Positions 45,619 through 49,251 of a DNA stretch of 64,000 nt are shown piece after piece. Each line of letters starts with the position of its first letter. Position 1 is the first letter of the stretch. A model generated the notes under the pieces. The model did not search any database. It was not told where the DNA came from and saw only the letters and a program-made list of their open reading frames with translations. The DNA is taken from positions 1 to 64,000 of the forward strand of contig JAJDDK010000004.1 in the NCBI GenBank assembly GCA_029260345.1. Direction: 5' to 3'. A program made the position numbers and the translations under genes. The DNA comes from Phycisphaerales bacterium (GTDB lineage: Bacteria > Planctomycetota > Phycisphaerae > Phycisphaerales > UBA1924).

Positions 45619-45975
45619 ATGGATCCTTGGTGGACGGAACAACAAGCGGGATTGATTGGCGGACTCCTCGGCGCTGGCATCGGCATTGTCTTTGGAGGTA
45701 TCGGCGGGGGTGTAGGCGGACCGCTCGCCGCGAAAGGGCGCGCGAAGACCTTTGTCCTGGGAATGATTGCTGCCGGTGCTGCGACGGGCGTCTTTCTCGC
45801 GATCGCAGGTCTCTTGGCGCTTGCGATGAGTCAGCCGTGGCACGTGTGGTATTCACTGCTCATGCCGGGTGTGATCAGCGCGGCGGTGTGCGGCTCACTC
45901 TTTCCTGTTTTCCGCAAGATCTATCGCCAACACGAAGAGCGCGTCCTTGCAGCGGAAGAATTCCGAAGAGGCTAG
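45619..45975 (+). CDS. Small membrane protein, partner of the DUF2089-type regulator
   Basis: 118 residues. Three hydrophobic segments are visible: a Gly-rich one (GLIGGLLGAGIGIVFGGIGG), one at about 48-68 (FVLGMIAAGAATGVFLAIAGLLAL) and one at about 77-97 (VWYSLLMPGVISAAVCGSLF), then a charged C-terminus. The Gly-rich first segment recalls glycine-zipper membrane proteins. It probably shares an operon with the regulator (12-bp gap). No named family was recognised. TTG codons a little upstream are possible starts. Confidence 0.65.
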   Translation: MDPWWTEQQAGLIGGLLGAGIGIVFGGIGGGVGGPLAAKGRAKTFVLGMIAAGAATGVFLAIAGLLALAMSQPWHVWYSLLMPGVISAAVCGSLFPVFRKIYRQHEERVLAAEEFRRG

Positions 45976-45982
45976 GTCCGCA

Positions 45983-46001
45983 CCTCTCCCGTCGGGAGAG
46001 G
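45983..46001. repeat. Hairpin repeat after the small membrane-protein gene
   Basis: CCTCTCCC GTC GGGAGAGG is a perfect 8-bp stem with a 3-base loop, 7 bp after the stop at 45975. It resembles a repeat I associate with planctomycete intergenic DNA and may stop transcription or stabilise the mRNA 3' end; no T run follows. Confidence 0.5.
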
Positions 46002-46137
46002 TCGGCGTCGCACAACGACGACGGGTGAGGGGCTACTGCCTTCTCCAAGCCTCGTACCAAATAGAAGCGTTCGTCCTTTCGGTGCGCTTCAAACAACGCC
46101 TTTCCGCCGAATGCAAAAATGCAAAGTGTGCTATGGC

Positions 46138-46164
46138 GACCCATCGCTTGCGCTCAGGGCTCTG
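46138..46164. repeat. Inverted-repeat end, copy 1 (overlaps dehydrogenase 3' end)
   Basis: A 27-bp segment starts GACCCATCGCTTGCGCTC and ends GGGCTCTG. It differs by only about three bases from the complement of the copy at 47084-47110 and is about equally close to 47227-47253. It overlaps the last codons and the stop of the dehydrogenase gene; Ser-Glu-Pro-stop is encoded within the repeat. No matching inverted partner is visible to its left. Confidence 0.8.
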
Positions 46165-47083
46165 AGCCTTCCAGCGCCGCCCAAACGTCCTTCACCACCC
46201 AGCTCATGTTCGCCTTCGCCCGCGCCGTCGCCGCGCCGATATGCGGAAATAGCTTCGCGTTCGGCAATCCGAGCAGCGGATAGTCCGCGCGGATCGGCTC
46301 CGGCTCGTGCACGTCGAGCATGGCGGTCGCTTTCGGGTTCGCCTTCAGGAACAACGCCAGCGTCGCCGCATCCACCACAAAGCCGCGGCTCGCGTTGATA
46401 AAGATCACATCCGGCCTCAGCAAGGCACACACGGTCGAATCAATCAAATTGCGATTTGAAGCCCGCCCGTCCACGTGAATCGTCAGCACGTCAGACTCGC
46501 GCAACAGTTCTTCACGGCTCACCGGCGCGGCGCCTAGGCGCTCCCTCTCCGGAATCTCGACGAGGTCGTGATAAATCACGCGCCCAAACAGCGTCTCGCC
46601 CACGCGCGCCACCGCCTTGCCAATGCGCCCCAACCCCAGAATCCCCAACGTCATCTCCGACAACTCGCGCGGCGTGATCGACGAATCCCGCAAAGCTCGC
46701 CATTGGCTCGCCGGCAAAGCGCCGGTTAGCGGCGTCAAAGGGCGCACGACAGCAAACACCTGCGCAAAGACATATTCAACAACCGCCGTTGTGTTCGCTT
46801 CCGGCGTGCTCACCACCTGCACACCCCGCCCGCGGCACGCCTCCACATCCACATTGTCCAGCCCAACACCTGCTCTCCCGACCACCTTCAGCCGCGGCGC
46901 CTGGGTCACTAGTTCCTCATTCACCTGCGTGTACGTCCGCACGACCAACCCGTCGGCTGTCTGAAGCGCTTCGGCCAGCGCCGCCGCGTCTTCAAACTTC
47001 ACTTCAACCACCTCGCACCGCTCGCGCAACCATGCAAGAGCATCCGGGTGAAGCGGTTCAGTAATGACAATGCGATGACGCAT
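46154..47083 (-). CDS. D-2-hydroxyacid dehydrogenase (phosphoglycerate dehydrogenase-like)
   Basis: 309 residues. The NAD-binding motif is GILGLGRIGKAV (147-158). The catalytic triad of the family is present: Arg233 in INASRG, Glu260 in DVHEPEP and His281 in PHIGAAT. KVVGRAGVGLDNVDVEACRG and VEYVFAQVFAV match the SerA-type substrate and cofactor region. The C-terminal regulatory ACT domain of long SerA is absent. The likely reaction is oxidation of 3-phosphoglycerate or another D-2-hydroxyacid; SerA cannot be asserted. Both gene ends touch 27-bp inverted-repeat copies, and the terminal residues come from one of them. Confidence 0.85.
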   Translation of the reverse strand: MRHRIVITEPLHPDALAWLRERCEVVEVKFEDAAALAEALQTADGLVVRTYTQVNEELVTQAPRLKVVGRAGVGLDNVDVEACRGRGVQVVSTPEANTTAVVEYVFAQVFAVVRPLTPLTGALPASQWRALRDSSITPRELSEMTLGILGLGRIGKAVARVGETLFGRVIYHDLVEIPERERLGAAPVSREELLRESDVLTIHVDGRASNRNLIDSTVCALLRPDVIFINASRGFVVDAATLALFLKANPKATAMLDVHEPEPIRADYPLLGLPNAKLFPHIGAATARAKANMSWVVKDVWAALEGSEP

Positions 47084-47253
47084 CAGAGCCCCGAGCGCCA
47101 GCGAGGGGTCGCGGCGACGCTGCTTTCACAACACGTGAACATCTGAAAGTGTGCGACCTCAAACGCGATTCCGATTCGGTCAACCGATTCTAGTTTGAAA
47201 ATCGCAACGGCGACTGGCGACTCCGAGACCCCGCGCTGGCGCTTGGGGCTCTG
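47084..47253. mobile_element. MITE-like element with 27-bp terminal inverted repeats
   Basis: The ends are 47084-47110 (CAGAGCCCCGAGCGCCAGCG, then AGGGGTC) and 47227-47253, which is its complement with about two mismatches. The interior, about 116 bp, carries no gene. On the complement the ends read QSPKRQRGV, a peptide seen in small over-called frames of planctomycete genomes. No transposase, and no clear target-site duplication, is visible. It sits between clpS (stop at 47261) and the dehydrogenase start, directly adjacent to that ATG. Confidence 0.75.
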
Positions 47254-47260
47254 AAAAAGC

Positions 47261-47626
47261 TCAATCGTCGTCATCGTCGGCGTCGCACTCGGCCGGCTCA
47301 AGCACCGCCGACATGGACCCAGCGCAGGACGAGATCAGCACATCGCGCCCGAACCCATGCACCTGATCACGCTTGAGCTCCGCGTGCTCTTTGTGCGTGG
47401 TCAGCAAAACGGCGCGGCCGTCCGCGTCCACGGTCTCCGCCGCCTTGAATGCCTTCTCAATCGGCATCGCGAACACGGAGTGCAGCATCCGGATCACGTA
47501 CTCGTACGTGTGATCGTCATCATCAAGCAACACGACATTCCACAGCCACGGCTGTTTGGTCTCGGTTTGCTCGTCCTGGCGCACGTCGGTTTGTGTCAGT
47601 GTTTCAGTCATGGTTGATGAGTTCAA
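47261..47626 (-). CDS. clpS: ATP-dependent Clp protease adaptor ClpS
   Basis: 121 residues. ClpS delivers N-degron substrates to ClpAP. The core WNVVLLDDDDHTYEYVIRMLHSVFAMPIEKAFKAAETVDADGRA carries the family pattern, with the hydrophobic N-degron pocket region VVLLDDDDHTYEYVI and a later THKEHAELKRDQVHGFGRD. The C-terminus is a run of Asp residues (ECDADDDDD), an unusual acidic tail. trpE ends 2 bp upstream, so the two are probably cotranscribed. The start could also be Met6. Confidence 0.9.
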   Translation of the reverse strand: MNSSTMTETLTQTDVRQDEQTETKQPWLWNVVLLDDDDHTYEYVIRMLHSVFAMPIEKAFKAAETVDADGRAVLLTTHKEHAELKRDQVHGFGRDVLISSCAGSMSAVLEPAECDADDDDD

Positions 47627-47628
47627 TG

Positions 47629-49251
47629 TTACGCGCCCGATGGGGTCGATGGAACCCCTCCCTCGGACAAGAACGCTGATTCGGCCAAATCAATCGCTCT
47701 CGCCAGCGCTGCGGCCTTATTCACCGTCTCCTGGTATTCCGCCGCGGGCTGTGAATCCGCGACGATCCCCCCCGCAGCCTGAATGTGGTACGTCCACGAA
47801 TGCCCGTCAAACAGCGCCGTTGGCACGACAATCGTGCGCAGCGCCAGCGCAATGTCCATTTCCCCAGCGACGCTGGCGAATCCCATGCCGCCGCCGTACG
47901 GCCCTCGCCGCACCGGTTCGAGTTCATCAATGATTTGCATGGCGCGAATCTTTGGCGCACCGGAAATCGTGCCCACCGGCAACGTTGCGCGCAACGCATC
48001 CCAGCAGTCCTGCCCGTCGCGCAGCACACCCGTCACCGTTGAACTGATGTGCATCACGTGGCTGTAGCGCTCGATCTCCATGATCGAATCCAGCTTCACC
48101 GTCGCCGGGGCCGCCACACGCCCGACATCGTTGCGGCCCAGATCAACCAGCATGATGTGCTCGGCGCGTTCTTTTTCATCAGCCAGCAGCTCCGCCTCAA
48201 GGGCGGCGTCCTCTTCGGGCGTGCCTCCCCGCTTTCGCGTGCCCGCCAGCGGACGATTGGTGATCTTGAGCTGCTCCGTCGCCGGATCACGACGCACGCG
48301 GCACAGAATCTCCGGACTCGACGCCACCAGAATGCACCCTTCGCCCTGCATGTACACCATGTACGGACTCGGATTCACCGCCCGCAGGGCGCGGTACACA
48401 TCGAATGGATCAATGGAGCTTTTCTTTTCAAATCGCTGCCCAAGCACCACCTGAAAGATGTCGCCCGCGCGGATGTATTCCTTCGCCGACTCCACCATCG
48501 CGGCGTGCTGCTCGCGCGTCAGATTCGACGGCATGGGCTGAGGAGCGCCGCTGTCCGTGACGTATCCGCTGGCGAGCGGCTTGGCGCGCATCTGCAATTC
48601 ATCGACAAACGCGCATAGCGCCTCGGCGCCCGCGTCGTACGCCGCGCCGAAGTCATCGCCGGGCTTTACTTCAATCAACCGAATCGCGTAGACCACTTTC
48701 TCCGCATGATCGAAGACGGCAAGCTGGTCGTAAAACCCGAAGTGCAAATCGGGGAGACTTCGATCATCCGGCGGCGCACTCTCAAGATTGAGTTTCTCAG
48801 GCTCGGCGTAGCGCACTGTGTCGTACGACGCGAAGCCGGCCCAGCCCCCCATCATCGCGCCGGGCATGACGACGCCGGGCGGCCGAAGAAAGACCAAGTC
48901 TGCCGTTTCGCGGCGCAATTCATCCAGCGGATCCTCCGCCTGAAACGCGCGATCGTTGCCAGTCCGGTGGTTCTGGATATGCACGGCATTGCCGCGCGCA
49001 ACGAACTCAATCGCCGGCTGCGCGCCCAGAATTGAATGCCGACCTTGGCGCTCACCACCCTCGACGGACTCCAGCAGGAACGACGTCGCCGTGCGTTCAT
49101 CCGGCGCCACCAGCCGCCGATACGCCAGCACCGGCGTGAGCTGATCGCTCAGCAAGCGCACCATCAGCGGCGCCACGGCGCGCTTCGCCCCATTCGACGA
49201 AAGCTCGCTCTTCACAAACTGAACAAAGTCATCTCGCGTCAGTGAGTACAT
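47629..49251 (-). CDS. trpE: Anthranilate synthase component I
   Basis: 540 residues. With its TrpG partner it makes anthranilate from chorismate. The chorismate-binding domain is intact: FQVVLGQRFEKKSSIDPFDVYRALR, then PSPYMVYMQGEGCILVASSPEI, the motif RPLAGTRKRGGTPEEDAALE, and LGRNDVGRVAAPATVKLDSI. The Pro-Ser-Pro-Tyr-Met sequence and the N-terminal region (LRLLSDQLTPVLAYRRLVAPDE) suit TrpE over PabB. clpS lies 2 bp downstream. trpG, trpD and the rest are not in the window. Aminodeoxychorismate synthase (PabB) is a less likely reading. Confidence 0.93.
   Translation of the reverse strand: MYSLTRDDFVQFVKSELSSNGAKRAVAPLMVRLLSDQLTPVLAYRRLVAPDERTATSFLLESVEGGERQGRHSILGAQPAIEFVARGNAVHIQNHRTGNDRAFQAEDPLDELRRETADLVFLRPPGVVMPGAMMGGWAGFASYDTVRYAEPEKLNLESAPPDDRSLPDLHFGFYDQLAVFDHAEKVVYAIRLIEVKPGDDFGAAYDAGAEALCAFVDELQMRAKPLASGYVTDSGAPQPMPSNLTREQHAAMVESAKEYIRAGDIFQVVLGQRFEKKSSIDPFDVYRALRAVNPSPYMVYMQGEGCILVASSPEILCRVRRDPATEQLKITNRPLAGTRKRGGTPEEDAALEAELLADEKERAEHIMLVDLGRNDVGRVAAPATVKLDSIMEIERYSHVMHISSTVTGVLRDGQDCWDALRATLPVGTISGAPKIRAMQIIDELEPVRRGPYGGGMGFASVAGEMDIALALRTIVVPTALFDGHSWTYHIQAAGGIVADSQPAAEYQETVNKAAALARAIDLAESAFLSEGGVPSTPSGA

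Follow-up and report, generated by a model that had tools for sequence, protein, structure and literature searches.

Three short repeats of 27 bp lie around a dehydrogenase gene in a 64,000-nucleotide stretch of a Phycisphaerales genome (contig JAJDDK010000004.1; this whole stretch is referred to here as the window). The arrangement raises the question of whether the gene was carried between the ends of a mobile element, as an original prediction made from the letters alone had proposed, or whether the repeats entered an ordinary host locus. The features concerned are as follows.

46138..46165, minus strand: REP copy 1, with a T variant in the stem; overlaps the last codons and the stop codon of the dehydrogenase gene
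46154..47083, minus strand: gene of the D-2-hydroxyacid dehydrogenase family (PF02826, PF00389)
47083..47110, plus strand: REP copy 2 (GA/GA form), which is the left arm of the doublet and abuts the dehydrogenase start codon
47083..47254, no strand: REPIN-like REP doublet of about 170 bp that occupies the clpS-dehydrogenase spacer
47083..47301, minus strand: probable ghost ORF of 72 amino acids containing QSPKRQRGV, i.e., REP copy 3 in translation
47227..47254, minus strand: REP copy 3 (AA/GC form), which is the right arm of the doublet
47261..47626, minus strand: clpS, upstream neighbour of the dehydrogenase gene on the same strand

A 25-base core was located at 46139 to 46163 (minus strand), 47085 to 47109 (plus strand), and 47228 to 47252 (minus strand); at up to three mismatches, it gave three matches in the window versus none in 100 dinucleotide shuffles. 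Copies 1 and 3 are 82% identical, copy 1 is 90% complementary to copy 2, and copies 2 and 3 agree at 87% over 38 nt in inverted orientation. The positions proposed for three near-identical 27-bp ends were correct, but "near-identical" was slightly too strong a term for these values. Copies 2 and 3 do form the predicted inverted-repeat unit of about 170 bp (47083 to 47254). The gene lies between copies 1 and 2, which are inverted, as had been stated, but their sense is opposite to that of the doublet: the CAGA feet of copies 1 and 2 point inward, to the gene, while those of copies 2 and 3 point outward.

We searched the genome from which the window was taken (G000; 3,402,878 bases in 8 contigs) for further copies. 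At up to three mismatches, AGCCCCRAGCGCNAGCGNNGGG had 53 matches versus 9 for a reversed control, and 38 of its matches were exact (27) or differed at a single position (11). A pattern with NGGGG had 36 matches at up to one mismatch versus none for the reversed pattern. In total, 45 copies (≤5 mismatches in 26 positions) were accepted in 41 loci, a count that is not exhaustive for degenerate copies and from which one weak match was dropped as noise. The genomic search that had been proposed for the 27-mer thus finds about 45 family members in 3.4 Mb. The conserved unit spans approximately positions −2 to +36 (AYCAGAGCCCCRAGCGCNAGCGNGGGGTCGCGGTTGCGC). According to gene calls from a home-made codon-usage heuristic, 36 of the 45 copies are extragenic (i.e., no more than half of the copy is inside called genes) though the loci are 76% coding, and the other 9 are inside called genes. 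As short imperfect palindromes that are present in many copies and mainly extragenic, the three 27-mers are copies of dispersed hairpin-forming REP sequences.

A different dispersed repeat is located at 45981 to 46055 (CACCTCTCCC-GGGAGAGGTCGGCG...GGGTGAGGGGC). It has some 20 BLAST matches in the genome (roughly 75 to 87% identity), several of which are near REP copies.

Each REP consists of a foot (CAGA), a stem (CCCC/GGGG), a 2 × 2 mismatch platform (RA versus GN), two further pairs, and a GCNA loop. In 26-mer numbering, the paired positions are C6-C9 with G22-G25 and G12-C13 with G18-C19, and G-C-N-A remains as the loop. Among the 23 distinct copies of the genome, standard pairs occupied 97.5% of the pair cells, compared with at most 59.1% for slid structures. 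The covariation score was 0.171 versus 0.072 in shuffles, and none of 500 shuffles reached the observed value. Pair 8/23 was seen as C-G, G-C, G-T, and A-T, indicating compensatory changes in the stem. At the platform, 16 of the 23 forms had G-A at 10/21 and 4 had A-C, and 21 had A-G at 11/20. Single copies with their flanks gave weak or competing structures in standard DNA folding (z, −1.0 to −2.1), and bare 28-mers do show the hairpin when folded. Given these weak single-copy folds, the case for the hairpin rests more on covariation than on energy.

The foot is C(A/C/G)GA in all 45 copies, and it corresponds to the CnGA 5′ foot of class 3 TnpA_Y1 REP systems. For this reason, we did not file the family in the GTAG or CGTC REP super-families, whose tags were found in none of the 45 copies. 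CNGA is constant in this genome, but many relatives have other feet (e.g., ACGA).

The pairing pattern also bears on the peptide QSPKRQRGV, which the ends had been said to encode and which is indeed contained in the ORF at 47083 to 47301 (minus strand). Could the string belong to real proteins? The 72-amino-acid reading frame is in its favor, but the copies are found on either strand, most of them outside called genes, and their variation follows the pairing of the hairpin, so that the probability of a true protein motif appears close to negligible. Because the 22-mer recurs mostly outside called genes, we do not think that this ORF is a protein gene; QSPKRQRGV is the repeat read in a protein frame. 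A text search of the literature collection used here for SPKRQRGV and PKRQRG found no paper with either peptide. The QSPKRQRGV peptide of planctomycete ORFs is thereby explained as a repeat artefact.

The original prediction had named a mobilising transposase as something to look for. The genome contains three Y1 transposase genes (PF01797). One of these (contig C2, 282022 to 282513, corresponding to L032:1411-1902, minus strand; 163 amino acids) is located between inverted REPs at C2:281921 (plus strand) and C2:282571 (minus strand). The candidate sought is therefore present as an HUH/Y1 gene flanked by REP copies in the same genome. The prediction was also right in taking the 27-mers for the ends of a small nonautonomous, MITE-like repeat. 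The passages on class 3 TnpA_Y1 in Quentin et al. 2018 (PMC6006769) give its motifs as NHVH, W[TA], and YV[VI][AENY]EQ with a Y----Q signature, name Planctomycetes, Acidobacteria, and Proteobacteria as the principal hosts, describe genes flanked by atypical structures with a CnGA foot, and regard the class as perhaps standing between classes 1 and 2. The C2 protein carries SNHVHVVV (NHVH), WT, and YVRDAQ (Y----Q), the last of which agrees only in part with YV[VI][AENY]EQ, and its gene is flanked by REPs. By motif match, it would fit class 3. Against the NCBIfam models for IS200 and for REP transposases, it reaches 34.9 and 29.5 bits, respectively, in each case below the cut-off, and a PDB sequence search with the protein returned nothing meaningful.

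The other two Y1 genes have repeats of their own. The second (contig C6, near 148454-149104) scores over the cut-off of REP_Tyr_transpos (NF047646) and is flanked by perfect 26-bp inverted repeats (L033:1178-1203 and 1813-1838) with the palindrome CCACTGCTCTTGAGCAGTGG. At up to one mismatch, this palindrome is present at 38 sites in the genome and at none in nine other planctomycete genomes; it is a second, independent transposase-repeat pair. The third (contig C5) scores over the cut-off of the IS200/IS605 model and lies between 57-nt inverted repeats that are 91% complementary (L031:1283-1339 and 1923-1979), and may be an IS200-like element.

We surveyed 392 planctomycete genomes for the REP motif (≤1 mismatch) and for matches to the C2 protein. 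The motif was detected in 21 genomes and the protein in 64 (both, 15; motif only, 6; protein only, 49; neither, 322). The protein was matched in 15 of the 21 motif genomes and in 49 of the 371 motif-free genomes, a co-occurrence with a Fisher P value of 8.6e−9 that is to be read with the caveat that the genomes are not phylogenetically independent. The six motif genomes with no transposase match are G023, G127, G172, G191, G267, and G373, with G127 and G172 having two or three motif copies. The 49 genomes with the protein and no motif would be expected if REP variants are private. Exact motifs in named genomes came from 22 stretches, all labelled Planctomycetota, Phycisphaerales, Phycisphaerae, or "bacterium" (Gpa_12). 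No transposase match was found in any of these stretches, which says little given that they are 8 kb or less.

REP-like hairpins (≤7 mismatches in 26 positions) were detected in 24 of 30 transposase loci, with 74 hits versus 5 in mononucleotide-shuffled sequence; loci L050, L054-L057, and L060 had none at this threshold. Column counts for these hairpins lean to the consensus because hits were picked by similarity. With this selection in mind, the tip pair C13-G18 was invariant in the 56 distinct hits from relatives, pair 12/19 occurred as G-C, C-G, and A-T, and the loop was GYNA across most relatives. We then took three variants found beside the transposases of genomes G242, G321, and G095 and counted them in the same 10 genomes. 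They had 76, 25, and 35 copies at home, respectively, and none in the nine others in each case. The core of our genome (≤1 mismatch) was less private, as among the other nine genomes it also occurred in G095, G068, G047, G361, and G064, mostly in one-mismatch forms.

Are the REPs deployed as paired ends? Eight neighbors within 250 bp were found among the 45 copies versus 0.18 expected for random places. Seven are convergent (CAGA feet outward) and one is divergent. The seven convergent doublets are paired ends of the kind that had been predicted, and they have the two inverted REPs of a REPIN. The REPs flanking the transposase gene are convergent as well, and copies 1 and 2 around the dehydrogenase gene are divergent. 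All close doublets counted by eye in G095 (10) and G321 (6) were convergent. G242 has close doublets in both senses (within 100 bp, a count by eye gave about 15 with feet inward and 10 with feet outward), so the feet-out rule is true of our genome and not general. The close doublets of G242 are spaced about 45 bp apart, unlike those of G000, G095, and G321. A further arrangement was seen in the Phycisphaerales MAG SJ456 (L131:6737-7211), where six REP doublets are in tandem, each made up of an exact copy and then a degenerate one in inverted orientation.

The doublet of the window could be an ordinary MITE, i.e., a unit of 170 bp that stems from a DDE insertion sequence and is copied whole, and its complementary 38-nt inverted ends around a 96-nt core have that appearance. 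However, in a BLAST of positions 45900 to 48300 against the whole genome, the REP ends recurred and the core was unique. The cores of the seven doublets are unrelated by eye, with only the ends in common, most REP copies are single, and the transposase linked to the REPs belongs to the HUH/Y1 type. We consider an ordinary MITE highly unlikely, and the fixed 170-bp unit of the original prediction is not upheld. Since the cores are unlike, it may not be the doublet that moves. Single REPs could be the mobile form, with a preference for pairing, or the doublets could be ancient, with cores that have since become different.

The history of the dehydrogenase gene was traced through its relatives. 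A match to the protein was found in 61 of 61 family genomes (the best outside its own genome being 64% identical), and we compared 30 dehydrogenase loci with flanks, 29 of them from relatives. No REP was detected near the gene in the 29 related loci, the nearest matches being no closer than 5 mismatches in 22. The gene clpS is directly upstream on the same strand in 19 of the 29, and the other 10 are without clpS upstream in the stretch. Here, the gene upstream of clpS resembles that of anthranilate synthase component I. From the clpS stop codon to the start of the dehydrogenase alignment, the 19 relatives have 10 to 150 bp versus 177 bp here, about 170 bp of which is the REP doublet. At the other end, the last codons (TCA GAG CCC TGA) are REP copy 1, so that the repeat supplies the stop codon. 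The C termini are 4 to 12 residues longer in 25 of the 29 relatives, often with PEFPA (by eye), which places copy 1 inside the ancestral gene end.

These data decide against a composite element in which the dehydrogenase gene was cargo moved between copies 1 and 2. The inverted orientation of copies 1 and 2 and their exact fit to the gene borders would suit such an element, but their feet point inward, opposite to both the doublet and the transposase pair, the gene is matched throughout the family, the related loci have no REP and, in many of them, clpS is the immediate upstream neighbor across a shorter spacer, and the repeat overlaps the 3′ end of a gene whose relatives continue beyond it. 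Gene and ends were not found to move together as in a composite transposon. We regard cargo transport as extremely unlikely and conclude, in place of the carriage first suggested, that the dehydrogenase gene is a much older host gene and the site of REP insertions. In the simplest history compatible with the compared sequences, a REP at the 3′ end would have slightly shortened the protein, and a doublet would have entered the clpS spacer. On this reading, the locus shows REPs trimming and separating ordinary genes.

The same spacer invites a different explanation, namely that the repeats are regulatory RNA or DNA hairpins kept in place (as terminator, mRNA stabiliser, or translation control of the dehydrogenase) and not mobile. 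Folded as RNA together with its borders, the doublet reaches −93 kcal/mol (mean of shuffles, −64.95; z, −5.96); it is located between genes of the same orientation that are near each other in 19 of the 29 relatives, and such roles are hypothesised for REPs in PMC3733652. Against this, Rfam gave no match at E values up to 1, the absence of REPs near the gene in the 29 relatives argues that this is no conserved regulatory site, and private variants track the transposase-bearing genome. Fixed regulatory hairpins are therefore improbable, and co-option of REP hairpins for regulation after insertion is possible. The GGGG of a REP is shortly before the dehydrogenase ATG, and a clpS-dehydrogenase transcript would gain a strong hairpin that may change expression.

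Taken together, we consider it very likely that the 27-mers are REPs of a class 3 TnpA_Y1 (RAYT-like) system, with the C2 protein as the likely mobiliser and the dehydrogenase locus as host. The computed basis is the repeat family, the covariation of its hairpin, the linkage between transposase and REPs, and the private matching variants; for mobilisation by the linked C2 transposase, the basis is association. In the mechanism that we propose, the C2 Y1 protein would bind the REP hairpin in single-stranded DNA, cut beside the CNGA foot, and bring REPs, singly or as doublets, to new sites that are mostly intergenic. Within the window, a doublet would have settled in the clpS-dehydrogenase spacer and a single REP at the 3′ end of the dehydrogenase gene. 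Cleavage and movement of REPs, like any effect on expression, are presumed from these patterns.

More tentatively, class 3 Y1 transposases might recognize a shared handle (the almost invariant C(GYNA)G tip and the GA-type platform), with the covarying stem and the foot giving specificity, lineage-wise co-evolution of the two partners, and some doublets, including that of the clpS-dehydrogenase spacer, co-opted as operon-internal control hairpins. We hold this wider reading to be possible and rather doubtful. If true, every class 3 Y1 transposase of planctomycetes would have a hairpin code of its own. The class 3 REPs now have a consensus that can be used, and the natural pairs of a transposase and a private hairpin in our genome, G095, G242, and G321 suit the study of hairpin choice by Y1 enzymes.

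REPs and REPINs are already known, and class 3 transposases with CnGA-footed structures have been known since 2018 (passages of PMC6006769); the only studies of planctomycete REPs that our literature search returned were PMC3733652 and PMC6006769. Like the REP/BIME and TnpA_REP system of Escherichia coli, as described in PMC8266576, the present family has a foot tetranucleotide, a hairpin with a mismatch bulge, and inverted pairs. The conserved E. coli bulge is AA-GC in that account, and the AA/GC mismatch of copy 3 has the same letters. Unlike the E. coli REP, whose foot is given there as GTAG, the foot here is CAGA and the transposase is of another class. The REPINs of Pseudomonas fluorescens SBW25, in the parts of Bertels and Rainey 2011 (PMC3116915) that describe them, similarly have two inverted REPs around a short core, are extragenic, and occur beside a RAYT gene. 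The doublet is argued there to be the moving unit in Pseudomonas, whereas here most copies are single and the doublet cores are unrelated. A third related system is class 3 TnpA_Y1 as characterized in the class 3 passages of PMC6006769, with which ours shares NHVH, Y----Q, a planctomycete host, and a gene flanked by atypical CnGA-footed hairpins with many genome copies. The hairpins in those passages were found by manual inspection, while we add a consensus with a GCNA loop and covariation, a test of private variants across genomes, and the clpS-dehydrogenase site. Class 3 REP systems are sparsely described, and the present family is a further member.
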